Below are positions 3,566-49,763 of a stretch of 49,763 nt of DNA, one piece after another. A program made the position numbers and the translations under genes. The notes under the pieces are model-generated. The model was given only the letters and a program-made list of their open reading frames with translations, was not told where the DNA came from and ran no database searches. The stretch is from a virus. Within the stretch, counting starts at the first letter, position 1. Each line of letters begins with the position of its first letter. The stretch lies in IMG/VR virus record IMGVR_UViG_3300032805_000009, positions 1-49,763 of that record; one strand, given 5' to 3'.

Positions 3566-4257
3566 TGGCCTACGCTAACGCATCCATCAAGAACAACTCG
3601 TACACCGGGACGAGCGCCAACTACACGCTCGCCGAGGGCGTATCGACGAACGATCTGATCTTCGTGCAGTGGGCCGAGTCGAACGCCAGCAACAGCACTG
3701 CTCCCACGATCACCGACCAAGCGAGCAACAACTACGCGGTGCTCGGCACGCCCCAGTACTTCAGCACGCCCAATCAGACCTGGGGCATGAGCTGGCTCGG
3801 CTCGCCGGCCACCTACAGCGCCGGCACCTATGTGCTCTCGCTCACCTCGCCCTTCAGCAACGGCCACTGGTGCATCACTCACTGGACGGGCTTCACCAAC
3901 ACCGTAGCGGTCGATACGACTGGCTCCTGGAACACGCCCTTCAACTCAGGCGTTGGGACTGCCGTCAGCGGCTCGGGCACCACCGGCCAATCCACCGAGC
4001 TGGTCCTCGGTGTGGCCTTCGGTGGTAACTCATACACCCTCCCCGGCGCCCCGTGGAACAATCCCTTCAATGGCGGCGGCGGGGCAATCTTCCAGATCGT
4101 GTGGCAGTCAGTCGCCAGCCCCAGCGCTGTGAGCTACGCCGGCACGATCGGTGTCAGCGAGCAGTGGGTGTTGTGGCTGCCGGGCTTCTATAGCGCCTCG
4201 GGCGGCGGCAGCGGCGTCAACCAAACCAACTTCATCACCACGGTAGGAGCAGCCTAA
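3565..4257 (+). CDS. Beta-rich structural protein, paralogue of the 48586-49401 product
   Basis: 230 residues, starting one base inside the stop of the preceding gene (TAATG). Gly/Ser/Thr/Asn-rich with regularly spaced aromatic residues, no signal peptide. The order of motifs (TITDQASNNY, then AGTYVLSLT, then HWTGFTNTVAVD, then STELVLGVAF) parallels that of the protein at 48586-49401 (TVSDNVNSGNY, TVSMTAGG, IEGFTGTPTIDV, NNEVMLVANDF), so the two look like diverged copies of one fold, one cytoplasmic and one with an export signal. Probably a concanavalin-like or jelly-roll adhesin or fibre part; the fold was not identified. Confidence 0.75.
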   Translation: MAYANASIKNNSYTGTSANYTLAEGVSTNDLIFVQWAESNASNSTAPTITDQASNNYAVLGTPQYFSTPNQTWGMSWLGSPATYSAGTYVLSLTSPFSNGHWCITHWTGFTNTVAVDTTGSWNTPFNSGVGTAVSGSGTTGQSTELVLGVAFGGNSYTLPGAPWNNPFNGGGGAIFQIVWQSVASPSAVSYAGTIGVSEQWVLWLPGFYSASGGGSGVNQTNFITTVGAA

Positions 4258-4400
4258 TGCCTAAAGCCTTCCTCCGGTGTGCGCGCTCGGGCGGCCGCGT
4301 GCGCACCAAACGTCTGCCGGGCGGCCGCTACATCAAGCTGTGCTTCAAGGGCGGCAAGAGCCACGCGGGCGAGGCCAAGAAGCGCAAGGGCCGCCGCTAG
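4257..4400 (+). CDS. Very basic 47-residue phage protein
   Basis: 47 residues, of which 18 are Arg, Lys or His, with two short Cys-containing hairpin-like halves (FLRCARSGGRVRTKRLPGG and YIKLCFKGGKSHAGE) and a terminal KKRKGRR tail. It shares a base with the stop of the previous gene (TAATG) and is followed by another gene two bases after its stop. Small basic proteins of this appearance are found near terminase genes of other phages; a nucleic-acid-binding role is likely from charge alone. Confidence 0.75.
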   Translation: MPKAFLRCARSGGRVRTKRLPGGRYIKLCFKGGKSHAGEAKKRKGRR

Positions 4401-4401
4401 C

Positions 4402-4722
4402 ATGCCAGTCAACAATCGCGTCGAGCTGGCCCCGAAGCTCCCGGCTGAGACGGTGCCGCGCACCGTGGACTTCATCAGCAAGCTGCCCACCGGCGTAACA
4501 ATCACGGGCACTCCCTCGGTGACGATCAGCGTGTGGAGCGGCAACGATCCGACGCCGATCCTCTCGCCGGGCACGCCCACCGTGAACGGCACACAGGTGA
4601 CCTGTCCGTTCAGCTCGGGGGTGACGGGCGTGATCTACCTCGTCAACTTCACCGTGGTGGGCAGCGACACCAACACCTATCAGCTCTTCGGCTATCTTGC
4701 GGTGGTCCCAAATGCACCGTGA
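4402..4722 (+). CDS. Small beta-sandwich-like structural protein
   Basis: 106 residues starting at ATG 4402. The pattern (a conserved VISVW-like strand, alternating hydrophobic residues, final LFGYLAVVPNAP) resembles small Ig-like head or tail accessory proteins found beside head genes. It ends the long run of fibre-module genes; its last codons form the left copy of a 10-bp direct repeat (TGCACCGTGA) that frames the pyrimidine-rich spacer before the large terminase gene. Function not known. Confidence 0.65.
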   Translation: MPVNNRVELAPKLPAETVPRTVDFISKLPTGVTITGTPSVTISVWSGNDPTPILSPGTPTVNGTQVTCPFSSGVTGVIYLVNFTVVGSDTNTYQLFGYLAVVPNAP

Positions 4723-4810
4723 GATTTCTCTTCTCTTGGTCTTCTCTTCTCTTGGATTCGGCCTCTTCTTCTTGAAGACCTCTTGGTTCGATGACACTCG
4801 TGCACCGTGA
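4713..4810 (+). repeat. Pyrimidine-rich element A flanked by 10-bp direct repeats
   Basis: TGCACCGTGA occurs at 4713-4722 and 4801-4810. Between them lies a strikingly CT-rich stretch with two copies of TTCTCTTCTCTTGG (4726-4739 and 4742-4755) and further CTTCTTCTT runs. The right repeat overlaps the GTG start of the large terminase gene. Similar direct-repeat-flanked CT/GA-rich stretches occur at 33820-33911 and 44946-45016. Confidence 0.7.
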
Positions 4811-6291
4811 ACGCCCTGACAACACCGCCGACGCTGACCGCCGACCTCATCGAGTCCTTTGCTGCGCTCTACCTGTCACACCGCTATGACAACCCCCGGC
4901 CCGTCCCCGAATTCCACCGCGAGTGCTGGACGATCTACAGCGACCCGATGGTCCTGGCAGCGGCTGTTGCAGCGCCTCGCGGCCACGCTAAGTCAACTGC
5001 GCTCACGCACGTCTTCATCATCGCCGCCGCCGTCTTCCGCTTCGACAAATTCATCCTGCTGCTCGGCAGCACCGAAGATCTCGCCAAAGAAGCCCTCAGC
5101 GACATTGCCGACGAATTCCGCGACAACACAGAGCTGCGCAGCGACTTCGGCCTCAAGCGTCTCGTTGTCGATCAGGATGGCGATGTCATCGTCGAGTGCA
5201 TTGACGGCTATCAGTTTCGTGTGCTCGCCCGCGGCGCTGGCCAAAAGATACGCGGCATCAAGTGGCACGGGCAACGCCCGGGCCTGATGGTTGGCGATGA
5301 CATTGAAGATGATGAGATGGTGCGCTCCCGCGAGCGCCGTGAAGAATTCAAGCGCTGGTTTCTGCGAGCGGCTCGGCAAGCCCTGCGCGGTCGCGGCAAG
5401 ATCCGCGTGCATGGAACCATCCTCCATGATGACTCCTTGCTCGCGGGTCTGATCCGCAACAGGTCCTGGGCCGGTCGCCTCTACAAAGCCCATGCAGCCT
5501 TTGATGATTTCAGCCACCCCCTCTGGCCTGACATGTTCGACGAAGCGTGGCTCCGAGCCAAACGCCAGGAGTTCCTCGATGCCGTCGATGCTGAAGGCTA
5601 TGCCCAGGAGTACCTCAATGATCCCCGCGACCGTAGCGACGCCTACCTACGAAAAGAGTGGTTCGTCCCTATGCAAGAGGAAGACTACTCCTCGACGAAG
5701 ATCCGAGCCGTTGGCGTTGACCTCGCAATATCAAAAGCTGATCGCGCGAACAGAACTAGCTTCACTGTTGGCGGAAAGGATCTCGACAATGTCCTTCATG
5801 TGCTGGATCAACGCTGTGGCCGCTGGGACTCCACCGAAATCATCGACGCTTTCTTCGACATCCAGCAGTTCCATCAACCTGAGGTCTTCTTTGTCGAAGA
5901 CGGGGTGATCTGGAAGGCCATCAAGCCCGTGCTCGATGAACAGATGCGCACCCGCAACGCATTCATCAACATCGTGGCAATCTGGCCCGTCAAGGACAAA
6001 GCCGCCCGCGGCCGCTCCCTTCAGCGCCGCATGCGCTCCGGTTCGGTACGATTCGACACTTCGGCCAGCTGGTATGCCGAGATGGAGGACGAGCTGCTAC
6101 GCTTCACGGGCACCTCAGAGGCGACGCTCGATGACCAGTTCGACTCCTCGGCCATCCTGTCGCGCGGCTTCGAGGGCTGGAACGTGGACTCAGAAGACAT
6201 GCAGACCGACGAAGAAATTGCCTTCGAGCGCGAGAGCAATCTTGCCCGCGCCGGCGGCTTCGGCGGCCGTAGCTCCATCACAGGATACTAA
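4807..6291 (+). CDS. terL: Terminase large subunit
   Basis: 494 residues, the usual size for a large terminase. The motor that pumps DNA into the prohead: an N-terminal ATPase with Walker A-like PRGHAKST (57-64) and Walker B MVGDDIED (161-168), a coupling motif near VHGTILHDD (202-209), and a C-terminal RNase H-like nuclease with GVDLA (Asp305), an acidic pair in FFVEDG (364-365) and DDQFDSSA near 445. GTG start chosen because it begins the conserved frame and no upstream in-frame ATG exists; the spacer before it has no good ribosome-binding site. The portal gene follows after 2 bp. The small subunit gene is unusually far away (42992). Confidence 0.95.
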   Translation: MNALTTPPTLTADLIESFAALYLSHRYDNPRPVPEFHRECWTIYSDPMVLAAAVAAPRGHAKSTALTHVFIIAAAVFRFDKFILLLGSTEDLAKEALSDIADEFRDNTELRSDFGLKRLVVDQDGDVIVECIDGYQFRVLARGAGQKIRGIKWHGQRPGLMVGDDIEDDEMVRSRERREEFKRWFLRAARQALRGRGKIRVHGTILHDDSLLAGLIRNRSWAGRLYKAHAAFDDFSHPLWPDMFDEAWLRAKRQEFLDAVDAEGYAQEYLNDPRDRSDAYLRKEWFVPMQEEDYSSTKIRAVGVDLAISKADRANRTSFTVGGKDLDNVLHVLDQRCGRWDSTEIIDAFFDIQQFHQPEVFFVEDGVIWKAIKPVLDEQMRTRNAFINIVAIWPVKDKAARGRSLQRRMRSGSVRFDTSASWYAEMEDELLRFTGTSEATLDDQFDSSAILSRGFEGWNVDSEDMQTDEEIAFERESNLARAGGFGGRSSITGY

Positions 6292-20099: not shown

Positions 20100-21404
20100 A
20101 TGAAGCTCCTATGGCTTGACATCGAGGGCGAAGGGCTGGGAGTGGGCCTGTGCATGCGCGCCAAGGCCCGTGGACACGATGTCCGTTTCTGGCAGCCCCC
20201 GCACAAGGGCACCGGCCTCGCCCTGCCCTACGGCGAGGGCCTGATCACCCGCATCGCCGAGTGGGAAGAGTCCATGGACTGGGCCGAGCTAATCGTCATA
20301 AATGGCAACAACCGGTACACCGAACTGTTCGCCCCATATTTCGGCAAGGGGTACCCAATACTCGGCGCAAACGCTAAGGGAGCGCAGCTGGAGCTGGACC
20401 GGGCGGTCGGCCAGCAGGTCTTTGAAGACCACGGGATAGAGACCATTCCCTATGTAACAGTGGACAGCGTCGCCGAGGCGATAGCGCACGTACAGAAGCG
20501 CAAGACCGGCGTAGTCGCCAAGCCATGGGGCGGTGACAGCAACAGCGCGATGACCTTCCTGGCGCACACGCCAGAGGAGGCGATCTTCACACTGCAGCGC
20601 TGGGAGAAGCAGGGCCTGTTTAAGGGCCAGCTGATGCTCCAGGAACTGGTCGAGGGCGTGGAGGTAGGCGTCGGCGGAATGTTTGGGCCGCATGGCTGGT
20701 GTGAGGCGATCGAAGAGAACTTCGAGTTCAAGAAGCTGATGCCCAGCAATTATGGACCGAACACCGGCGAGATGGGCACGGTCGCTCGCCACACCACCTC
20801 CAGCAAGCTCTTCGACATGCTGCTGGAGCCGCTCACCGGCTACCTGCACCAGATCAACTACGTGGGCGATATCGACGTCAATTGCATCGTGGTGGACGGC
20901 ACACCCCTGCCGCTGGAGTTCACCATGCGCTGGGGCTGGCCCGACTTCGCGTTGCGCCTGGAGGCGCTCTCAGTCGATCCGGTCGTCTTCATGGCCGCAC
21001 TGGTGGCGGGCGAGGACAGGTTTGTGGTCTCACCGGACGTGGTGGTCGGGGTGGTGATGGCGCATGGTGACTTTCCGCGGGGCGGCGATCCACTCGGCAC
21101 GCACGCGGATTTCCCAATCACCTATGAGAGCGATGCGCACGTCTATTGGGAGCATGTGAAGCGGGGCGAGCATCCCAAGCTCGACGGGGGCATGAAGCGG
21201 GGGCTGGTCACCGCCGGCAACTACGTATGTGTTTGCACCGCCAAGGGATCTTCGGTGTCGAACGCTGCGCAGAAAGCCTACGCGGTCGTGGACAGCGTGA
21301 GCTGGCCGGGCGACATTATCGTGCGCGACGACATCGGCGAGCGCCTGGAGAAGGACCTGCCTGTCCTGCAGGCCGCCGGCTTCGTTGAGGGGATGGAGTA
21401 CTGA
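20100..21404 (+). CDS. PurD-like ATP-grasp ligase
   Basis: 434 residues resembling phosphoribosylamine-glycine ligase (PurD) in layout: a Rossmann-like start (LLWLDIEGEGLGVGLCMRA), GANAKGAQLELDR (88-101) in the place of the lid-entry helix, ATP-grasp strand VVAKPWGGDS (138-147), LQELVEGVEV (180-189), GPNTGEMGT (219-227), very close to the PurD GPNTGGMG signature, and a metal-binding-type LEFTMRWGWPD. PurD joins glycine to phosphoribosylamine in purine synthesis; ATP-grasp relatives join other carboxylates and amines. Lying among tail genes away from any nucleotide genes, it may act on another substrate. No ribosome-binding site is visible before the ATG, so expression may be regulated or the start uncertain. 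Confidence 0.75.
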   Translation: MKLLWLDIEGEGLGVGLCMRAKARGHDVRFWQPPHKGTGLALPYGEGLITRIAEWEESMDWAELIVINGNNRYTELFAPYFGKGYPILGANAKGAQLELDRAVGQQVFEDHGIETIPYVTVDSVAEAIAHVQKRKTGVVAKPWGGDSNSAMTFLAHTPEEAIFTLQRWEKQGLFKGQLMLQELVEGVEVGVGGMFGPHGWCEAIEENFEFKKLMPSNYGPNTGEMGTVARHTTSSKLFDMLLEPLTGYLHQINYVGDIDVNCIVVDGTPLPLEFTMRWGWPDFALRLEALSVDPVVFMAALVAGEDRFVVSPDVVVGVVMAHGDFPRGGDPLGTHADFPITYESDAHVYWEHVKRGEHPKLDGGMKRGLVTAGNYVCVCTAKGSSVSNAAQKAYAVVDSVSWPGDIIVRDDIGERLEKDLPVLQAAGFVEGMEY

Positions 21405-21667: not shown

Positions 21668-22374
21668 TGGGCATGCAGGGTGGCAGCCCCGGGATGGCCG
21701 ATTACTGGGCGCCAGGGGACTGGAACGCTGCCTGCTCGCTGTGCGGCCGCAAGCGCAAGTTCACCTATCTGGAGCGCAACTGGCAGGGCATGTATCGCTG
21801 CCCGGAGCACAACGAGCCCCGCCAGCCGCAGGACTTCGTGCGCGGCATCCCCGACAAGATGGGCGTGCCCTATTCGCTCTTCGAGGAGCAGACGTTCACC
21901 TCGACCACCCCGGGCTTCAGCGCCCGCGTGGTGCCGAGCGCTGTGCAGATGGTGGGCATCAGCGCGGATCTCGATACCGAGAGCGGCATCGCGCTGGAGA
22001 CCGAGGGCGGCCAGATCATCGATGTCGAGAACACGATCTACCTCTCGCCGCCGGCGAGCGTGCTACTGCCCGATTGGCTGAGCGTCCCTGAGGCTCCTCC
22101 CTGGTTCGGCAAGGGCACCGATCTGATGCCCAGTGAGACCATCAACTACCAGTGGAGCTGGGTGACGCCCAATCCGACGGTCACCATCACCAATCCGACC
22201 AGCTCATCGACCAGCTTCCAGACCGTCAACTCCAGCGCCCCTACCACACAGGCCCAGGTGGTCGTGACACTGCCCAACGGGGCCAACGTGACGCTCCTGG
22301 TAACCGTATCGATCGTGACTGTCGGCCAGACCTACGTGACCTACCCCCTTCTCATATGGGCGATGGACCTATGA
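21667..22374 (+). CDS. Virion protein with N-terminal zinc-binding motif
   Basis: 235 residues. N-terminal WAPGDWNAACSLCGRKRKF ... MYRCPEHNEPRQPQDFVRGIPD contains Cys-x2-Cys and Cys-x2-His pairs spaced like a small zinc ribbon (about residues 19-46); this motif set with the following PRQPQDF is familiar from structural-region proteins of many tailed phages. The C-terminal half is beta-rich with a long Thr/Ser/Val repeat. Overlaps the neighbours by a few bases on both sides. Confidence 0.7.
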   Translation: MGMQGGSPGMADYWAPGDWNAACSLCGRKRKFTYLERNWQGMYRCPEHNEPRQPQDFVRGIPDKMGVPYSLFEEQTFTSTTPGFSARVVPSAVQMVGISADLDTESGIALETEGGQIIDVENTIYLSPPASVLLPDWLSVPEAPPWFGKGTDLMPSETINYQWSWVTPNPTVTITNPTSSSTSFQTVNSSAPTTQAQVVVTLPNGANVTLLVTVSIVTVGQTYVTYPLLIWAMDL

Positions 22375-23408
22375 AGCTACGCAAACTCCTGGTGGTGCTC
22401 GCTCTACTGGTCCCCGGTGTGAGCTGGTGTCAGATCAAGATCAGCCAGCTCCCCGCAGGCACCACGCCCACAGGCGTCGAGCTGTTCCCCGCGGTGCAGT
22501 CCAGCAACACCGTCAGCCTGACGCTCAACCAAGTGGTCGCCCTCACGATCACCAACCTGAATGCCACCACAATCGGCAATCTGTGGTCCGGCTGCTCAAC
22601 GCTCACTGCGCTGTTCTACGGCGGGGTGTGCCAGCAGGTCGTCCAGTCGATCGCCGTGGGCACGATGCCGACCGGCTTCACCGCATCGGTCAGCCAAGCC
22701 GGCAACATCTGGACCACCAACATCAGCTACACCGCTGGGCAGTCAGCCAACCAGTTCCTCGCAACGCCCAACGGAGGCAGCGGGCCGCTCGGGCTGCGCA
22801 CGATCGTCGGGTCCGACATCCCTGCAACCAACCTTGCCTCTAACGCCAACGGCGGGGTGACGGGCATCCTGCAAGCCTCCAATGGTGGCTGCGGCACCAG
22901 CACGCTGCTCGCCTGCATCACCGCGTTGCTGCCCGCTCAGACCGGCTTCAACGGCTATGCGCTCACTACCAATGGCTCAGGCACGCTCAGCTGGCAGAAC
23001 TCCACGGTCACGCAGACCAGCGGCACCTTTGCTACGCAGATCAGCGGCTGCTCAAGCGGTGGTAGTGGAACCCTCCACTACAACAAGACGGGCAACATCG
23101 CTTCGATCTATTCCAACGGCACCATCAGCTGCAACGGCTCGGCGACCACAGCGAACTTCACGATGAACAGCGTGCCCGCTGCGATCAATCCGACCAACTC
23201 GCAGATCGTACCGTGCATGATGATTCTTGCGGCGGCGACTACGGGGATCAGCGGATATTGTCAGGTATCCGCGAATACCATCACCGTGTGGACGGCTGTT
23301 TGGAATAGCGCCTTCATTGTCCAGGGCTCGCTCAGCTCGGGCTACTTCGCCAGCGGCGTGACGCGGGGAATTGCAGCAGGGTTCTCACTCACTTATCCAT
23401 TGCAATAA
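22371..23408 (+). CDS. Fibre-like protein with an export signal
   Basis: 345 residues. It opens with a Sec-type signal peptide (MKLRKLLVVLALLVPGVSWC) and then a typical phage fibre N-terminal sequence (IKISQLPAGTTPTGVELFP). The remainder is Thr/Asn/Gly/Ser-rich with Cys pairs (SGCSTLTALF, SGCSSGGSGTLHYN). Export of a fibre-like protein is unusual, since tail fibres are assembled in the cytoplasm; similar signals occur at 44584, 44958, 46931 and 48586. ATG overlaps the previous stop (ATGA). Confidence 0.75.
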   Translation: MKLRKLLVVLALLVPGVSWCQIKISQLPAGTTPTGVELFPAVQSSNTVSLTLNQVVALTITNLNATTIGNLWSGCSTLTALFYGGVCQQVVQSIAVGTMPTGFTASVSQAGNIWTTNISYTAGQSANQFLATPNGGSGPLGLRTIVGSDIPATNLASNANGGVTGILQASNGGCGTSTLLACITALLPAQTGFNGYALTTNGSGTLSWQNSTVTQTSGTFATQISGCSSGGSGTLHYNKTGNIASIYSNGTISCNGSATTANFTMNSVPAAINPTNSQIVPCMMILAAATTGISGYCQVSANTITVWTAVWNSAFIVQGSLSSGYFASGVTRGIAAGFSLTYPLQ

Positions 23409-36231: not shown

Positions 36232-36461
36232 CGCCGCTTCCTCGCCAGCCTCTTCAGCACAGGACAACTGCGCTGGTTGTGTCCAAGCTCCCGACAAAAG
36301 CCGCAGCGGCGCTCAACCATCGTCACCCTCACAGGCTCGAAAGAGATCCAGAGTTTTGCCGGCGCCTTGACCCGCACCCGCTTGGCCTGCTGCGCGCGGC
36401 AACGCTCCAGGTAACGCTCGATTTCGGGTATCGGTTCCGATGTCCGGTTACTTTCTGCCAT
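36228..36461 (-). CDS. CCHC zinc-knuckle protein (77 residues)
   Basis: Basic protein with Cys53-x2-Cys56-x4-His61-x4-Cys66 (CGFCRELGHNQRSC), the exact spacing of a retroviral-type zinc knuckle, flanked by Arg-rich segments. Zinc knuckles bind single-stranded RNA or DNA. The gene overlaps the PEP-CTERM-like gene upstream by 14 bp and the next gene by 4 bp. Confidence 0.7.
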   Translation of the reverse strand: MAESNRTSEPIPEIERYLERCRAQQAKRVRVKAPAKLWISFEPVRVTMVERRCGFCRELGHNQRSCPVLKRLARKRR

Positions 36462-36732
36462 GCCTCCCCCTCACCGCCGCCAATCCCCCAACGAGCAGCA
36501 CGAGCGGCGCAAGCGCACCACTCGGGTCGATCTCAGGTACTGCGGTGGGCGCGAGCGCGAAGCTGGTTGCCGGGGGATCGGTGTTGCCCGGCTGACACGC
36601 GTAGCTCGCGCCATTGCCGTTGGCCTGCCAGCATTCGCACCAGCCCGTGTCCCCACAGCCATTAGTGTAGATCTGCGCCTCGGCTGCGCCGCTCAGCATC
36701 AGCCCCATCGCTACGATCTTCCATGCGTTCAT
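36448..36732 (-). CDS. Secreted small protein with Sec signal and PEP-CTERM (VPEID-type) tail
   Basis: 94 residues with an excellent ribosome-binding site (AAAGGAGGT, 5 bp before ATG). Residues 1-19 (MNAWKIVAMGLMLSGAAEA) are a Sec signal peptide with Ala-x-Ala cleavage. The mature part has five Cys in a short segment (GCGDTGWCECW, then YAC). The end reads VPEIDPSG (65-72), a hydrophobic span (ALAPLVLLVGGLAAV) and an Arg-rich tip (RGRHGRK), the three-part exosortase sorting signal. Exosortase substrates are linked to exopolysaccharide. A phage-made one could remodel the surface or block other phages; this is inference. Confidence 0.75.
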   Translation of the reverse strand: MNAWKIVAMGLMLSGAAEAQIYTNGCGDTGWCECWQANGNGASYACQPGNTDPPATSFALAPTAVPEIDPSGALAPLVLLVGGLAAVRGRHGRK

Positions 36733-38427: not shown

Positions 38428-38484
38428 GGTCCCTCCGTGAATGAAGGGGCTAAGACTACAACAACAACAACGCCGATGCAATCA

Positions 38485-38600
38485 TTAGGCATATGAGGCA
38501 TTAGGCATACGCGCCGTTAGGCATATGAGGCATATGACGCATTAGGCATATGAGGGGTTAGGCATATGCCGGTTAGGCATATGAGCTTGAGGCATATGCC
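38485..38600. repeat. Iteron array, eight copies of a TTAGGCATATGAGG-like repeat
   Basis: Copies begin at 38485, 38501, 38517, about 38528, 38542, 38558, 38573 and about 38588. The core GGCATATG is exact in seven and GGCATACG in one; TTA precedes six copies. Spacing is 11 to 16 bp. Arrays like this bind initiator proteins at plasmid and lambdoid phage origins, or repressors at operators. Two DnaA boxes follow 37 bp later. Confidence 0.9.
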
Positions 38601-38637
38601 GAGCGCATGGTGCGGCGCGGCGGCCCTGGGGATGGCC

Positions 38638-38657
38638 TGTGGATAAGCTGTGGATAA
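38638..38657. promoter_or_regulatory. Two DnaA boxes next to the iterons
   Basis: TGTGGATAA (the reverse complement of the consensus TTATCCACA) at 38638-38646 and 38649-38657, 11 bp apart, so both lie on the same face of the helix. Confidence 0.85.
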
Positions 38658-38944
38658 CGCAAAACGCGGGCACGGGGCATCCTCGGGTGACGCGCCCCGT
38701 GCGCAGACTCAGGTCCGCTAGTTGTGATGGGCTGACATATCAGTCAGCCGTACTCGCTTGCCGTACGTCACCTCCACAAATGTGCCAGCGTCAGAATGGC
38801 GCCGGCGGTTCGCATGCGGCCGTCTGGCCGCGCGCGTACGTTGCGTGCTTGGGTATTCACCTCCAGTGATTGCTTCAGAATCGAACACAGGGCCGCTCGT
38901 GTCGGGCCCCCCTACAGAACGTAAGGGGGACCGTAGCTAGCGTC

Positions 38945-42733: not shown

Positions 42734-42764
42734 TGTGGATAAGCTGTGGATAAGCTGTGGATAA
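42734..42764. promoter_or_regulatory. Three tandem DnaA boxes in 11-bp phase
   Basis: Perfect TGTGGATAA at 42734-42742, 42745-42753 and 42756-42764, exactly 11 bp apart, directly after an AT-rich stretch. This arrangement fits a DnaA-dependent replication origin. Confidence 0.85.
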
Positions 42765-42991: not shown

Positions 42992-43615
42992 GTGGTAGAT
43001 GAGCCGGCTGGGCCAGATTCAGCGACAAGCGTCCCTCCCTGCGCGCCCGACGAACCCGGTCCGGCCGGCTCGCTGCCCGATCCCACCCTCGCCACCGGTC
43101 GCTTCGGGCTCAACGAGGACGGCAGCCCCACGCGCTGGCCCTGCGGCAAGCAAAAGGGCATCCAGAAGGTCCACTACACCCACGAGGCGATGATCGAGTG
43201 CATGATCGCCCACCCGGAGTGGACGCAGCGCCAGATCGCTGAGTACTTCGGCTACAGCGAGGTGTGGATCTGCAACATCATCGCCAGCGACGCCTTTCGC
43301 GAGCAGATGGTCAAGCGCAAGGACGAGATCATCAATCCCGTCCTCAAGGCCAACGTGGAGGAGCGCTTCAACTCCAACCTGCGCATGGCCCTCGACCTGA
43401 TCCAGGCCCGCCTCTCCACCGGCGTCGTCAGCGACAACTTCCTGCTGCGCACCACCGAGATGAGCGCCCGCGCCCTCGGCCTCGGCGCCCCCAAGCCGCC
43501 CGCACCCACCACCCCCAACATGCACCTGCATCTGCACGAGATGTCAGAGCGCCTCACGGCCCTGCTGGCCCAGAAGCGGGGCACCACCATCGACTCGGAG
43601 CCCACCAATGGCTGA
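42992..43615 (+). CDS. terS: Terminase small subunit
   Basis: 207 residues from a GTG start (GGGGAG about 13 bp upstream). After a Pro-rich disordered start, ECMIAHPEWTQRQIAEYFGY then SEVWICNIIASDAFREQM is a helix-turn-helix typical of small terminases; a helical oligomerisation part follows (VLKANVEERFNSNLRMALDLI) with a Pro-rich, His-containing tail. It recognises phage DNA for packaging. First gene of the plus arm, but about 11.5 kb of fibre genes separate it from the large subunit gene at 4807. Confidence 0.8.
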   Translation: MVDEPAGPDSATSVPPCAPDEPGPAGSLPDPTLATGRFGLNEDGSPTRWPCGKQKGIQKVHYTHEAMIECMIAHPEWTQRQIAEYFGYSEVWICNIIASDAFREQMVKRKDEIINPVLKANVEERFNSNLRMALDLIQARLSTGVVSDNFLLRTTEMSARALGLGAPKPPAPTTPNMHLHLHEMSERLTALLAQKRGTTIDSEPTNG

Positions 43616-43922
43616 GATCAAGCGCACCCACCACGCCGGCGTCGGCCGCTACCTGGATAAGGGCAGTGTCATGGGCCAGGAGGTCGATCGCTCCAACTGG
43701 CGCACCGGGCGCACCCACACCGAGGCCCCCAAGATCCGCGGCCCCGTGCACGTCGCTGTAGGCAGCCCCGTGCGCGCGCCGGTCGTGCGCCAGCGCGTCA
43801 TCTACACGCACGAGACCAGCGCCCTTGAGGCCGCCTCCAGCAATCGCACGCTCACCCAGCACCACATCCTTGCCGGCATGAAGGAAGTGGTCCCGGTGCG
43901 CATCAAGAAGGGACTACCGTAA
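43608..43922 (+). CDS. Protein of unknown function (104 residues)
   Basis: Overlaps the small terminase gene by 8 bp and shares one base with the next start. Basic with many His, Arg and Val (VRAPVVRQRVIYTHETS). Position after the small terminase suggests a packaging or head role. No family recognised. Confidence 0.7.
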   Translation: MAEIKRTHHAGVGRYLDKGSVMGQEVDRSNWRTGRTHTEAPKIRGPVHVAVGSPVRAPVVRQRVIYTHETSALEAASSNRTLTQHHILAGMKEVVPVRIKKGLP

Positions 43923-44557
43923 TGAGAGCTACCCGCGTATCGCTGAATCTGGGCTCGACCGGCTACGCGCCCACGATCCTGCACGACACATGGCAGACGC
44001 CCAACAACATCACCCTCGCGCTCAGCGGGGCCAACGGCTCGGGCGCGGTCTCGGGCACCTGCACGGTGCTCTACACGGTCGATGATCTGTCAGACGCCGC
44101 CGCGCGCTTCGTCGCCTCGATCACCCAGTCCACCAACACCATCACGGTCACCGGCGACAACGGCTGGCCCGGCCCGGGCGGCTTCACCGGCACCGGCAAC
44201 ATCTCGCAGGCGGGCAACGGCGATGCCGGAGCCCACAACCTCGTGGTCGGCGACATGGTGATTCTGGAGGCCACCGGGGCCAAGATGGACGGCATCTACA
44301 CCGTCACCACCGTCGTGAGCGCCACCAGTTACACGCTCACCTCGATGCTGAGCCAGACGGCCACCGCCTCCCAGAGCGCCCGCGTGACCAGCGCCCGCAT
44401 GTACACGCACAGCGTGCTGGCGGCGATCAACCTCGCCACCAACCCCAAGTCAACGAGCAACTACACCTTCCCCGTGACCAGCTCCACTCTACAGTGCACG
44501 ATCGCGGGTGCCGGCATCGCAACGCTCGCTGTCCTGCAGGGGGGCATGTCCTCGTGA
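43922..44557 (+). CDS. Beta-rich structural protein (211 residues)
   Basis: Starts within the preceding TAATG. Thr/Ser/Gly/Ala-rich with strand repeats (TVLYTVDDLSDAAARFVASI, NTITVTGDNGWPGPGG, GIYTVTTVVSATSYTLTSML); begins with RATRVSLNLGSTGYAPTIL, without an export signal. Opens the fibre/adhesin module. No family recognised. Confidence 0.7.
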   Translation: MRATRVSLNLGSTGYAPTILHDTWQTPNNITLALSGANGSGAVSGTCTVLYTVDDLSDAAARFVASITQSTNTITVTGDNGWPGPGGFTGTGNISQAGNGDAGAHNLVVGDMVILEATGAKMDGIYTVTTVVSATSYTLTSMLSQTATASQSARVTSARMYTHSVLAAINLATNPKSTSNYTFPVTSSTLQCTIAGAGIATLAVLQGGMSS

Positions 44558-44583
44558 GGCTTGCCGCATGACAAGGAGCGCCA

Positions 44584-44955
44584 ATGAGACTGTTGCTTGC
44601 CTTCATGCTAGCCGTCGCCATCGCGGCCTGCGTAAATCATGCTACCGCGCAAGGCCCCTCGGCCGTGCTCAGCTGGACGGCGCCGACCACCTACACCAAC
44701 GGCTCGTTGATTGGCTCGGCCACCATCACCTACAACATCTATCAGGGGTTAACTGGCCAGGAAGGTACGACGCCAGTTCAAACCAACCTTAGCGCGACGA
44801 CGGCTACCATCACCGCCGGCCTAACCCCTGGTACCACGCAGTGCTTTGAAGTCACTGCGCTGGTCGCCGGTGTCGAATCTGCCAAGTCCAACGAGGCCTG
44901 CAAGACCTTCGCCCCCTTGGTCCCGAGCGCGCCAACCAGCCTAACGGTGCATTAG
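44584..44955 (+). CDS. Exported fibronectin type III-like protein
   Basis: 123 residues, AAGGAGC before the ATG. Signal peptide MRLLLAFMLAVAIAAC with a lipobox-like IAAC at 13-16 (an alternative Ala-x-Ala cleavage lies after HATAQ). The rest is one FN3-like sandwich: AVLSWTAPTTYTNG, TYNIYQG, TTATITAGLTPGTTQCFEVTAL, and a final SNEACKTF. Either a secreted adhesive protein or a surface lipoprotein made during infection. Confidence 0.7.
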   Translation: MRLLLAFMLAVAIAACVNHATAQGPSAVLSWTAPTTYTNGSLIGSATITYNIYQGLTGQEGTTPVQTNLSATTATITAGLTPGTTQCFEVTALVAGVESAKSNEACKTFAPLVPSAPTSLTVH

Positions 44956-45016
44956 CCATGAATCTTCTCTTCTCTTTTCTTGGTCTTCTCTTGGTCTTGG
45001 TCTTGGTCTTGGTGCA
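44946..45016 (+). repeat. Pyrimidine-rich element B with four TCTTGG repeats
   Basis: GGTGCA at 44946-44951 and 45011-45016 flank a CT-rich stretch with four tandem TCTTGG units (44989-45012). It lies in the start of a fibre gene, where it encodes the hydrophobic run LLFSFLGLLLVLVLVLV. Related to elements at 4713-4810 and 33820-33911. Confidence 0.65.
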
Positions 45017-46928
45017 CCGCCGACACCATGGACTTGCCGCAAGGTCTGCGCCCCTGTTCTTTCTCGCAAGCCTTCTTCTCTCTGCCGACACTAGTGCACA
45101 GGTGACATCGCCCAATGGCACGACATATGTGCCGGGCGGCGGAGGCGGCGTGACAGTGACCGGCGGTGCGCCCACCGTCGGCCATTGCGTAGCCTTCTCG
45201 GGAGCAACCTCCATCACCGATTCGGGAGGTGGCTGCGGCGGCTCTCCCAACTTCAGCACAATCGGTACAGGCACTAACACTACAGCCACCATGACGGTGA
45301 GCACCGGTGCCTTGCTAACTACCAGCGGCACCGGCGCAATCAACACTACCACCCCCTCCACCAACAGCGCTGCCGGCGCAGCTTCAGCGGCCGCCTTAAC
45401 TTTCAGTGGTGCCCCTTATTCAGCTGGCACAGGGACAACGAATTTTCCGCAGATTTACGAGAACACGACCGGTGCCACTGCGCCCACGACCTTCAGCACC
45501 GGCGGCACCTACCAGGGCATCAACTCGGCCAGCGGATTCGCCGGCAATTACTACGACTTCTATGCGAACGGCAGCAAGATCGCATCATTCGATTACCTTA
45601 ACACCTGGGGGCTCGAAGGCTATTTCGGCGGTGTGGGAGCTGCAGAGGCACAGATCCACACGCTCGATAATCAGCTAGGCACCAAAAACTACATCGCCAT
45701 CGGAGCCGGCAGCTACAACATTGGCAGCCCTAGTGGCACGGCGGCCTGCCCAGGCTATTTATTTAGCATCGCCTCTGCGCCCGCAGGATCGTATTACTAC
45801 AACACCTCGATGTACATCGGCGGGGCTGGTGATTTTTTCGTCTGCGGCGGCAATGCAGCGCCTGTCGACGGCTTCTTAATGCAGGACAACACTGTAAATA
45901 ACAGCGAGCTGTTCGAGATTCTCAACAGCGCCGGCCATGGTCCTCAGTGGTATGTGCGCACTGATGCGAGCACGACCTGCCCTGGCTTGGGCAGCGGCTT
46001 GAGTTTCTCTGGTCCATGCGTTGTATTTATGAACGACGCGCTCAGCACGGGCAACGTGCTGCCCTACTTCATCGAATCGCGCTTCGGGTCCTTGCACGCG
46101 GTCTACGGTGTATTAGCTAATGAAATTATCGAACGTGTAGGGGATACAACTCCGACCACCTTTTTGCTAGCCACCAGCACCGGTACTAGCCAAGCGACGG
46201 TGACCCTCGGTGATACGAATGCGAGCAGCGCAACCACCGTCACGGGCGGCACAACGGGTGGCATAACAATCGGCGCTGCTAGCGTCCCAGTCACCTTCGC
46301 GGGCGTGACGGGCACGACTCAATGCCTCCAGGTCAACAGTTCTGGTCTTTTAGCCGGCACTGGCTCTGCTTGTGGTAGCGGCGGCTCGACCGCATTTAGC
46401 TCCATTACCACTGGCAGCAACACCACTGCCACCATGACCGTTGGTTCTGGTGCTTCAATCATCACCAGCGGCACGGGCATCGTTACTGCCACATCAACCA
46501 ATGGCTACGCCACTGCCTCTCTTCCTACCTGCAACAGCGGCGCCAAGGGGCAGGTCGCCTACACAACCGACAACACGCCAGCCTTCGCTTTTTGTAATGG
46601 AACCTCGTGGGTCAGCGGTGGCGGTACTACCTTCACCATGGCCGGTACCGGCTGCACTCCGACAGGCGCCACCGGCGGAGCTACCACCGGCAAGTTCACC
46701 CTCGCCAGCGGCCCCTGCACCGTCGTTACTATCACCTTCAACGGCGCTGTCGGTATGACAGCAACCAATGGCTGGCACTGCGATGTCGGCGACGATACTG
46801 CCCAGAACGCCGGCACTTGGATTCCACATTGGGGCCAATCTTCCTCCACGACCACCACCGCTGCTATCCCGATCCCCGCTGCCGCAGGGACGACGGACGT
46901 TATTAGCTTCAACTGTTCGCAGTACTAA
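44958..46928 (+). CDS. Exported fibre-like protein (656 residues)
   Basis: From ATG 44958 it opens with a CT-repeat-encoded hydrophobic run, then HRRHHGLAARS and a normal Sec signal (APLFFLASLLLSADTSAQ). A GTG at 45012 after the repeat would give just the normal signal peptide, so the true start is uncertain. The mature part is Thr/Gly/Ser/Ala-rich with repeated FSTIGTGTNTTATMTVSTGA (about 100) and FSSITTGSNTTATMTVGSGA (about 480), and a YDFYANGSKIASFDY middle as in phage fibre domains. The C-terminal GQVAYTTDNTPAFAFCNGTSW resembles a fibre head. GC is lower near 45660-46560. Confidence 0.75.
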   Translation: MNLLFSFLGLLLVLVLVLVHRRHHGLAARSAPLFFLASLLLSADTSAQVTSPNGTTYVPGGGGGVTVTGGAPTVGHCVAFSGATSITDSGGGCGGSPNFSTIGTGTNTTATMTVSTGALLTTSGTGAINTTTPSTNSAAGAASAAALTFSGAPYSAGTGTTNFPQIYENTTGATAPTTFSTGGTYQGINSASGFAGNYYDFYANGSKIASFDYLNTWGLEGYFGGVGAAEAQIHTLDNQLGTKNYIAIGAGSYNIGSPSGTAACPGYLFSIASAPAGSYYYNTSMYIGGAGDFFVCGGNAAPVDGFLMQDNTVNNSELFEILNSAGHGPQWYVRTDASTTCPGLGSGLSFSGPCVVFMNDALSTGNVLPYFIESRFGSLHAVYGVLANEIIERVGDTTPTTFLLATSTGTSQATVTLGDTNASSATTVTGGTTGGITIGAASVPVTFAGVTGTTQCLQVNSSGLLAGTGSACGSGGSTAFSSITTGSNTTATMTVGSGASIITSGTGIVTATSTNGYATASLPTCNSGAKGQVAYTTDNTPAFAFCNGTSWVSGGGTTFTMAGTGCTPTGATGGATTGKFTLASGPCTVVTITFNGAVGMTATNGWHCDVGDDTAQNAGTWIPHWGQSSSTTTTAAIPIPAAAGTTDVISFNCSQY

Positions 46929-46930
46929 AC

Positions 46931-48589
46931 ATGCGCAGACGCGAAGTAATTGCCGGGCTCGCTGCTGCGGCCGTTGCCGACAAGGCAATCTCGGCTATTG
47001 GCGCTTTTACAACTGGTCCTGGTGGTATCCTTGCTCCCCTTGGTACGGGTAGTAGTCAGTCATTTGACTACTATATTTCCACCACTGGAAACGACAGCAA
47101 TTCTGGCACCTTGGGCTCCCCCTGGACCATCAACAGCCTGTCGCCCTATTCATCGGGCTCCGCGCTCACCAACTACAACACCAAGATTGCCGGCAAGAAG
47201 ATCGGATTACTGCCCGGCACATATGGCGTAGGCGCGCTATGCACGGCAGCGTACTCTGGAAACGGCACGAGCGGCATCGCGCTCGACTTGCCGGGCGGGA
47301 GTGTAGGTAATCCCACCTACGTTGCGTCGAGTAACTCCAGCGGTTTCTATCAAGCGCGCACCGCAACCCTTCAGGCCAACGATACCGGCTTCTACGGTGG
47401 GGCAAATGGCAATGCCAGCGCCATCATCGGACAGTCCTATATCTACGGCACGCACGGCTATATAACCATCGATGGCCTCAAGATCACCGGCGGGGCCGTT
47501 TGGGGCGTGAACTTCGGCAACATCGCCGGTAACAACTACACCGCGCCGGGAATGACGCTGCAGAACTGCGAGATCACCGGCTTCAACGCGCAGAGCAATA
47601 CGCACTCCAGCGGGCAGAACGTGAGTTGCATCCAGATCCTCTCGTGCAGTGGTGCGACCGTCACCAACAACTGGATTCACGATAACGTCGGTTGGACGGA
47701 CGCTACGCACTTTGCTGCGATTTACCACTGGGGCCTGGGCAATCCGTCCGGCAACGGTACGATCAACTCCACCATCACGTACAACACGCTCGTCAACTCG
47801 GGCGGGATGATGGGCAAGGAGGGTTATCAGGCCGGTACCACGATTGCCTACAACTACATTGATATGAGCCTGATGACGCCCAGCGGTGGTGGCGGTCAGA
47901 TGGGCGGTATCTACGGTTTTGCGCAAGCCTATGCCTCCACTGCTCTTGTCACAAACATTCACCACAACATCATCAAGAGCTTTACCGGCACTTCTGGAAC
48001 CAATGCGCTACGCGGCCAGACCTGGATCAGCCTCATCGGAGACAATGCCGGCTCCTCGGGTCAGGTGGCGTGGTACGGACCGGTGCATGTGTACAACAAC
48101 ACCATGGTCGGCACCTCGGACCTCAATGGCTGCGGCATGGCCTACTTTGAGCAAGTAGCAGGAACTCAACCCGTCACCGACTATAACAACCTGTTCTGGG
48201 ATGCGGGATTCAACGAGGTCGCGCAGTTCGGGTGGTACTGGTGTAACCCCGACATCTTCACGCTTTGTGACTACAACATCCTCGGCACGCATCAGCAGTC
48301 CGGAGTGTGGGCAACCTTCAGCACCAATGGCACCAACATCGGCTACGGCACGGCCGGTTACGCCTCGAACTTGGCAGGATTCGCCTCGACTACAGGCACT
48401 TCGGCGCACTCATCGACCAACTCGACCAACCCGTTCACCAACAACGGCACCTATGCGCTGCAGTATCAGGTGCAGGCCGGCTCGCCTGCCTATCAGACCG
48501 GCAAGGTCGGCGGCACTTCGGGCGGTGCCACCTGCAACGTCGGGGCTTGGGACGGCTCCGTCACGCAAATCGGGTGCAACTTCGCATGA
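46931..48589 (+). CDS. Right-handed beta-helix protein with a Tat-like signal
   Basis: 552 residues. MRRREVIAGLAAAAVA is a twin-Arg type export signal (RRREVIAG). DYYISTTGNDSNSGTLGSPW starts the pectate-lyase-like beta-helix family, followed by coils with IDGLKITGGAVWGVNFGN, LQNCEITGFNAQSN, VTNNWIHDN and IHHNIIKSF ladders. Such folds bind or cleave polysaccharides. No known phage tail protein is folded for Tat export, so it may act outside the infected cell. Confidence 0.75.
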   Translation: MRRREVIAGLAAAAVADKAISAIGAFTTGPGGILAPLGTGSSQSFDYYISTTGNDSNSGTLGSPWTINSLSPYSSGSALTNYNTKIAGKKIGLLPGTYGVGALCTAAYSGNGTSGIALDLPGGSVGNPTYVASSNSSGFYQARTATLQANDTGFYGGANGNASAIIGQSYIYGTHGYITIDGLKITGGAVWGVNFGNIAGNNYTAPGMTLQNCEITGFNAQSNTHSSGQNVSCIQILSCSGATVTNNWIHDNVGWTDATHFAAIYHWGLGNPSGNGTINSTITYNTLVNSGGMMGKEGYQAGTTIAYNYIDMSLMTPSGGGGQMGGIYGFAQAYASTALVTNIHHNIIKSFTGTSGTNALRGQTWISLIGDNAGSSGQVAWYGPVHVYNNTMVGTSDLNGCGMAYFEQVAGTQPVTDYNNLFWDAGFNEVAQFGWYWCNPDIFTLCDYNILGTHQQSGVWATFSTNGTNIGYGTAGYASNLAGFASTTGTSAHSSTNSTNPFTNNGTYALQYQVQAGSPAYQTGKVGGTSGGATCNVGAWDGSVTQIGCNFA

Positions 48590-49401
48590 GAAAACTACTC
48601 GTGCTCCTGCTGCTACTCGGATGCTCTCCGGCGTTTGCGGCGCTTACTGTAGTGGCAGGTCCCAGCACCTTGCAGGGCAATCCCCCTGCTAATCAGACCT
48701 TCGGCAGTTCGGTTCCGTCGGGCTCGGTCATAGTCAAATTCATCATGGGGCCGGGTTGCAGCACCGACACGGTCAGCGACAACGTCAATAGCGGCAATTA
48801 CACGCTGATGGTGACCTATGCCACAGGAGGTGCGAACGGGCCGCTGTGCATCTACTACAAGGTCACCAACGCCACCGGAACGCCAACGGTGTCAATGACA
48901 GCCGGTGGTTATAGCTACACGGATCAACTTGCTATCGAAGGCTTCACTGGCACACCTACCATTGATGTTGGGATTCAGGCGCATAACACGGGCACAAGCA
49001 GCACGCAGTCCATAAACGCGACAAGTAACTTCAACAACGAAGTGATGCTTGTCGCCAACGATTTCGGCACCAGCAATATCACGGTGAGCGGTGCCAACTA
49101 CACGCCCGACGTATCGGGCACCTGGGCCGTGATCGGCTATTCGCAGATTGAGGCGACGCCGACGACCAAGAATTACAGCGCGACGCTGGCGGCCAGTACA
49201 ACCTGGTTCGTGCAGCTGGCGGGCGTCTATGATGCGACCGGTTCATCGTGTACCCATGCCGGCTACACCAGCGGCGGAGCCAGCACCGTTCCTACCTCTG
49301 GCGTCACTAGTGTGTGGCTCAAGACTGGTTCGTTCGGTACCGTTAACTGCTCATCGACCAACTACTGGCAGCCGGCCCTTGGCAACTTCGGAGTAAACTG
49401 A
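48586..49401 (+). CDS. Putative lipoprotein paralogous to the 3565-4257 protein
   Basis: 271 residues. MRKLLVLLLLLGCSPAFA shows a lipobox LLGC (10-13) and also a possible Sec cleavage after AFA. The mature part is beta-rich (TVSDNVNSGNYTLMVTYATG, YTDQLAIEGFTGTPTIDVG, NNEVMLVANDFGTSNI) and parallels the shorter, signal-less protein at 3565-4257. ATG lies in the TGA of the preceding gene and TGATG starts the next one. Confidence 0.75.
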   Translation: MRKLLVLLLLLGCSPAFAALTVVAGPSTLQGNPPANQTFGSSVPSGSVIVKFIMGPGCSTDTVSDNVNSGNYTLMVTYATGGANGPLCIYYKVTNATGTPTVSMTAGGYSYTDQLAIEGFTGTPTIDVGIQAHNTGTSSTQSINATSNFNNEVMLVANDFGTSNITVSGANYTPDVSGTWAVIGYSQIEATPTTKNYSATLAASTTWFVQLAGVYDATGSSCTHAGYTSGGASTVPTSGVTSVWLKTGSFGTVNCSSTNYWQPALGNFGVN

Positions 49402-49763
49402 TGTCAGCCCCAAATAGCGTCACCCTGAACGCCGGCAGCGGCGGCAGCAAGGTCGGCACCGTTCAGGATTCCGGCTCCAACCAACACAACCTCGTGGTGC
49501 TGGAGTACTGGACCGGCGCAGGCGATCCGGTGGTGGTGAACAACACCAACCCCCTACCTGCCAACGCCTTCCTGCAGATGCTCTACCCCTCCGGTACGCC
49601 CTCGTACACGGCGGGCACCAGCAACCCCGCCGTCATCGACAGCGCGGGCAACGTGTGCGTGAACATCAAGGCGGGCGCTGCTGCAGGCGGCACCTCGATC
49701 GTCGATGCGGCAGTCTTCACTCGCAGCTCCACGGTCGAGACTCCGGTGGGCGGCGTCGCCCAG
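49401..49763 (+). CDS. Structural protein, 5' part of the gene spanning the contig junction
   Basis: First 121 codons of the 302-residue protein that continues at base 128 of the window. Begins SAPNSVTLNAGSGGSKVGTV, then HNLVVLEYWTGAGDPVVVNN, typical of short beta-rich virion proteins. No signal peptide. Confidence 0.85.
   Translation, partial: MSAPNSVTLNAGSGGSKVGTVQDSGSNQHNLVVLEYWTGAGDPVVVNNTNPLPANAFLQMLYPSGTPSYTAGTSNPAVIDSAGNVCVNIKAGAAAGGTSIVDAAVFTRSSTVETPVGGVAQ
49637..49763. repeat. Right copy of the 127-bp terminal redundancy
   Basis: Exact duplicate of bases 1-127. Collapsing it gives a 49,636-bp circle. Confidence 0.95.

Follow-up and report, generated by a model that had tools for sequence, protein, structure and literature searches.

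A conserved operon of fibre- and adhesin-like proteins with predicted export signals lies between the terminase genes of a soil-type podovirus-like phage

The window analysed here comprises 49,763 nucleotides, positions 1 to 49,763 of IMG/VR record IMGVR_UViG_3300032805_000009, the genome of an uncultured, soil-type bacterial virus. In the slot between the genes of the small and large terminase subunits we identified an operon of fibre- and adhesin-like proteins with predicted N-terminal export signals, and one more such protein is encoded outside the slot. Comparisons with relatives give good support to the view that these signals are real and selected and that the operon is conserved. In the reading we favour, to which we assign a probability of about one half, the late (virion) operon would give rise to a second protein set, of fibres, enzymes and adhesins, that is carried out of the cytoplasm by the host Sec and twin-arginine (Tat) systems. 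Signal peptidase I (SPI) would cut the signals, disulfide bonds would form in the periplasm, and lysis would free the set, which would then serve outside the cell, next to the non-exported (virion) set, as accessory adhesins and depolymerases.

An earlier note on this DNA had proposed that the proteins encoded from positions 22371, 44584, 44958, 46931 and 48586 look exported. All five open reading frames (ORFs) are present, each on the plus strand, and a candidate N-terminal signal was found in every one. For signal prediction, the check suggested in that note, a rule-based caller was used which looks for a basic n-region, an uncharged hydrophobic core and an AXA or lipobox site; four proteins were called, and 44958 was assigned by alignment with its homologues. 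The signals (a slash marks the predicted cut) are MKLRKLLVVLALLVPGVSWC/Q in the fibre-like protein at 22371–23408 (signal 22371–22430, score 42.6), MRLLLAFMLAVAIAA/C in the single FN3-domain protein at 44584–44955 (score 45.8), MRRREVIAGLAAAAVA/D in the twin-arginine middle protein at 46931–48589 (signal 46931–46978, score 31.1) and MRKLLVLLLLLGCSPAFA/A in the adhesin-like protein at 48586–49401 (signal 48586–48639, score 42.9). The 656-residue fibre-like protein at 44958–46928 has two hydrophobic stretches, the second of which ends LFFLASLLLSADTSA/Q (SADTSA/Q, up to about position 45101) and, judged by eye, aligns with the signals of homologues. Its N-terminal LVLVLV is encoded by a TCTTGG hexamer repeat (44963–45010), the length of which could change with the frame kept.

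A basic n-region, an uncharged core and an AXA-type site, as in Sec signals cut by SPI, could be recognised in 22371 and 48586 and in homologues from L029, L236, L079, L008 and L016; the same applies to 44584 if cut at ATA/Q (signal 44584–44652) and to 44958 through the homologue alignment. The note had also read 44584 (IAAC) and 48586 (LLGC) as lipobox-bearing. Both motifs exist, but they are weak and not conserved, and type I cleavage sites fit better: LLGC has an unfavourable Leu at −2 and a poor consensus, with a classic SPAFA/A site instead, the L029 homologue of 48586 has no lipobox, and neither has the L014 homologue of 44584, with the signal MIMRILSTLCATYVMAPCALA/Q (ending ALA/Q). The twin-arginine call on 46931 gains support from L236, in which the homologous position holds MHRRDFIGSLIAAAVSAAA; both N-termini show an RRx-phi-phi motif and a moderately hydrophobic core. 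Pfam and NCBIfam scans revealed no outer-membrane translocation or anchoring domain (autotransporter, outer-membrane barrel), and library scans gave no direct tail-fibre family match for 44958, 46931 or 48586; the 46931 protein, with no domain match, is beta-helix-like by sequence. Weak Pfam, PHROG and NCBIfam matches (Cap15, S7 peptidase, CAP160) were below cut-offs and were dismissed.

Applied to E. coli K-12, the caller recovered 15 of 16 exported proteins, and its five false calls were membrane or probably exported proteins, with no soluble cytoplasmic protein among them. Spurious ORFs in relatives scored at least 30 in 43 of 3546 cases and at least 40 in 0.17%. No core virion gene of the window was called as signal-bearing. 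The starts of 46931, 44958, 48586 and 22371 lie at most two bases from the preceding stop or overlap it, and that of 44584 is preceded by an AAGGAG site. Signal calls in L094 and L015 were taken as false, owing to an unlikely ORF and a wrong start of the large terminase subunit (TerL), respectively.

By terminase alignment more than 500 relatives were found in IMG/VR, 80 of which were kept for a survey. Signals scoring at least 30 were present in 8 of 371 genes upstream of TerL vs. 0 of 634 downstream. The order Sec fibre, Tat or Sec middle protein, Sec adhesin is shared by the window (44958/46931/48586), L029 (1653/2558/4831) and L236 on G021 (about 3151/6229/8790), the export pattern being Sec-Tat-Sec in the window and G021 and Sec-Sec-Sec in the three consecutive genes of L029. 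The L029 fibre has the C-terminal four-Cys domain of 44958 (about 46626–46925) at 58% identity, and the L029 homologue of 48586 is 35% identical over its full length, with an intact-looking signal in both. In L236, a 1025-residue fibre and an 854-residue protein starting MHRRDFIGSLIAAAVSAAA accompany a 48586 homologue. G021 lacks a TerL belonging to this clade and follows a different genome plan, and an additional signal-bearing fibre-like gene is found among its structural genes. No homology was detected between the middle proteins of the window and L029, and no two of the three share a database family, yet each is signal-bearing. The finding of this group, identically ordered, in an unrelated virus makes it probable that export is real and benefits the virus.

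Within the TerL tree, the six clade phages with signal-bearing genes all fall in one 27-row part (support 96/95), with none in the other 60 rows. The signal in G002 stands on a protein that matches tail-fibre PHROGs (phrog_5668 tail fiber, E 2e-20) and has an S74 chaperone. Direct IMG/VR searches with 46931, 48586 and 22371 found no relative, and a search of 50,697 phage records gave no match to these or to 44958; 44584 matched generic FN3 domains only, mostly of Enterococcus phages. G425 was considered as a close relative and ruled out by its different genome plan. Two other signal-bearing proteins were seen in relatives. L016 (181–3555) encodes, in the slot, a 1124-residue Sec-signal GH5 cellulase with FN3, malectin-like and BNR repeats, and L034 (1272–1544) encodes a 90-residue HNH-nuclease-like protein, possibly an exported phage nuclease, between a lysozyme-like gene and TerL.

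Within a single operon, one family was found both with and without the signal. The 48586-family profile matches a non-exported neighbour in the window (3565–4257, plus strand, E 2.8e-4) and in L029 (7930, E 4e-4; 1.9e-5 on a truncated copy), and thus in both an exported set is followed by a non-exported set. The signal and a C-terminal module, CTxxGxTSxG...GNFGxN with two invariant Cys (49243–49398 in the window), are confined to exported copies of the family; the paralogue at 3565 has neither. Outside the slot, 22371 has an orthologue in L244/G426 that is flanked by the same genes and begins MTKISQLPAG, with no signal; by comparison, 22371 has about 20 additional residues, placed exactly ahead of the fibre motif KISQLPAG. 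All of the 22 loci that the KIS motif retrieved from IMG/VR begin with it, and in L246, L256 and G007 it precedes tailspike-type beta-helix domains. The exported 22371 is the sole KIS protein of the window. An ATP-grasp-like protein encoded at 20100–21404 within the tail module is kept in the syntenic contig G426, next to the KIS fibre gene.

Cysteine makes up 2.03% of residues in the exported proteins of the window vs. 1.05% in non-exported module proteins (P = 0.02) and 0.56% in core virion proteins (P = 3e-7); in L029 the values are 2.17% for exported proteins vs. 0.54% (P = 3e-4). Mature 22371 has eight Cys vs. two in the signal-less orthologue, a difference that alone is not significant (P = 0.11). 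The C-x15-C pairs of 44958 occur, among the loci examined, in signal-bearing fibres only, barring scattered chance matches. With all slot proteins pooled the contrast is smaller (1.65% vs. 1.15%). Cys parity (13 of 16 exported proteins even) was judged weak as evidence since the proteins are related. The high Cys content of the exported proteins supports an oxidising compartment as their predicted destination.

Taken together, the recurrence of signals in phages both diverged and unrelated, the existence of one family with and without a signal, and Cys content give good support to export of these proteins, as against the ordinary assembly of fibres in the cytoplasm. Late expression of the exported set is suggested by its genes sharing strand and cluster with the virion genes. 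The short signals (16–20 residues) and the one twin-arginine point to a Gram-negative-type (diderm) host, in which both Sec and Tat deliver into the periplasm. Among bacterial genome bins, the nearest TerL matches were set aside as a host clue, being probably stray phage contigs. The secreted or surface-displayed set envisaged in the earlier note is supported as far as export is concerned, by signal recurrence and Cys content, but not as lipid-anchored display, given lipoboxes that are not conserved and no anchor domain. We infer release at lysis and the final role of the set.

Several points weigh against this reading. The signal calls rest on a rule-based caller, and Tat-signal hidden Markov models, which are short and weak, went unmatched in the Pfam or NCBIfam scans. 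Export is a minority feature of the clade, and in some genomes the Cys content of non-exported slot proteins overlaps the exported range. AlphaFold without or with a three-row alignment gave predicted local distance difference test (pLDDT) values of 30 and 35; because of this low confidence the enzyme and beta-helix roles rest on sequence. Moreover, lysis frees cytoplasmic proteins anyway, so release alone gives no need for export. The sequences would fit soluble release as well as virion binding after leaving the cytoplasm.

The usual view is that tailed phages make their fibres, and attach them, in the cytoplasm. The strongest rival to soluble release is virion loading outside that compartment, of 22371 above all: exported fibres would fold and form disulfides in the periplasm and join virions when the inner membrane opens at lysis. 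Removal of the signal would give 22371 an N-terminus, QIKISQLP, like that of signal-less fibres; the KIS motif is N-terminal on beta-helix tailspikes of other phages, and the window has no other protein with it. The position of the genes within the packaging/structural cluster and the tail-fibre matches and S74 chaperone of the exported G002 protein also agree with two-compartment assembly, which we entertain as a tentative alternative. Against it, no virion attachment partner was found, the cassette proteins except 22371 have no KIS motif, and we know of no tailed phage that assembles in this way. That a tailed phage builds part of its virion outside the cytoplasm, with Sec/Tat-exported, disulfide-bonded fibres added at lysis and signal-less copies assembled inside, is possible but doubtful.

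Receptor masking or decoys, serving superinfection exclusion in the manner of T5 Llp, from within the periplasm or the outer membrane, appear quite unlikely. Envelope-placed fibre-like proteins could bind the phage's own receptor, and exclusion lipoproteins of phages are a known kind (PMC9586334). However, T5 Llp is a small, early lipoprotein jamming one receptor, and receptor-blocking phage proteins are typically expressed early (PMC9586334), whereas the present set is large and multi-protein, its lipoboxes are not conserved in homologues, and its genes sit in a same-strand, late virion cluster; because of this last point, the superinfection-blocker option raised earlier is disfavoured. A role as auxiliary exoenzymes degrading soil polysaccharides to feed the infected host would agree with the Sec-signal cellulase of L016, with its FN3 and BNR repeats, but we hold it improbable: the GH5 mannanase-like protein of the window (677–3565) has no signal, the remaining exported proteins are fibre- and adhesin-like, and late genes leave the host little time for benefit. 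Secreted bacterial proteins often have beta-helix, FN3 and GH domains, and the signals might have been inherited with captured bacterial exported genes and now be unused, the proteins being ordinary virion fibres. This seems very improbable, since signals persist at 35% identity and across unrelated phages, 22371 shows gain or loss of a signal in a fibre that is otherwise of phage type, and a search of 398 genomes from one bacterial phylum, run without a positive control, gave no hit to the 48586 family. Chance hydrophobic N-termini or wrong start codons, which the two hydrophobic stretches and hexamer repeat of 44958 and the lack of a Shine-Dalgarno sequence at some starts might suggest, are hardly credible given starts that touch or overlap the stop before them, scores that greatly exceed those of spurious ORFs, signals in 0 of 634 core genes, and recurrence in homologues.

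The first 127 bases of the window are identical to the last 127 (terminal direct repeat, 1–127 and 49637–49763), showing the record to be complete and circular, with a closed circle of 49,636 bp. With terminase, portal and capsid genes in podovirus order, the genome is podovirus-like by its sequence; it has a head-closure Hc3 match (phrog_578, E 1e-26), and among the 50,697 phage records identity to the nearest terminases is below 40%. The variable slot, bounded by the genes of the small (42992) and large (4807) terminase subunits, crosses the contig joint. On the circular contig the module therefore runs to about 4722, past position 49763, where the earlier note had let it end. All slot genes are on the plus strand. 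The upstream border is a terminase small subunit-like helix-turn-helix protein (42992–43615), the identity of which we infer from its translation and its position before TerL. The slot opens with a non-exported conserved protein (43922–44557) that has same-place homologues in G001, G002, G004, L014, L030, G008 and G018. Beyond the exported genes lie a non-exported 302-residue module protein spanning the joint (49401–49763, then 128–673), a non-exported 962-residue protein (677–3565) with He_PIG Ig-like repeats and a GH5 beta-mannanase-like domain (PDB 3jug, E 1e-7), and the 48586 paralogue. A non-exported conserved protein (4399–4722) closes the slot before TerL (4807–6291), its downstream border and the anchor of the survey.

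Elsewhere, 11-bp repeats with TGTGGATAA (DnaA-box-like) occupy two non-coding stretches (42734–42764 and 38625–38658) and may mark a replication origin; a repeat array of AGGCATATGA type lies at 38483–38601. On the minus strand, 36448–36732 encodes a 94-residue protein with a Sec signal, MNAWKIVAMGLMLSGAAEA/Q, and a PEP-CTERM/exosortase-like tail, VPEIDPSGALAPLVLLVGGLAAVRGRHGRK, and the relative G004 (L183:8253–8855) encodes a 200-residue protein with a signal and a similar tail, APEIDSKGWASGLTLLIGGLLVLRGRR. No convincing NCBIfam match was obtained for these two proteins, which are possibly exosortase substrates encoded by phage.

Envelope proteins encoded by phage include Bor and Lom of lambda. 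Like these and T5 Llp, the proteins described here are predicted to be sent out via host pathways during infection; unlike Llp, they comprise several large fibre or enzyme proteins with type I signals in a late operon. The KISQLP motif of 22371 and the S74 and tail-fibre PHROG matches of the G002 homologue resemble PHROG tail spike and tail fiber families, yet known tail fibres and tailspikes (the 22 loci starting at the anchor motif) have no signal, whereas in 22371 a cleavable-type signal precedes the motif. Surface-displayed bacterial lipoproteins and phage fibres diversified by diversity-generating retroelements (DGRs) offer a parallel of variable ligand-binding proteins in exported and non-exported versions. 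In a survey, phage DGR proteins were without signal peptides (PMC6199706), unlike the signal-bearing phage fibre-like proteins of the window. A GH5 domain in the slot, without a signal in the window protein at 677 and with one in L016, recalls the virus-encoded glycoside hydrolases of soil viruses; unlike those, the window proteins lie in an adhesin/fibre operon and are mostly not recognisable enzymes. Phage-encoded envelope proteins and tail fibres are already known, and in the literature searched we found no description of their combination in a conserved, apparently exported fibre-like operon within the packaging/structural cluster of different phages, with a non-exported paralogue alongside.

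That different lineages share a conserved operon of exported fibre-like proteins, with a non-exported paralogue as its counterpart, suggests that some phages turn to the oxidising periplasm for making adhesins and depolymerases with a function outside the cell. It raises the question whether there are extracellular phage proteins apart from the virion, or whether virions are assembled in two compartments. Such soil phages may also be a source of disulfide-stabilised binding and sugar-cutting proteins.

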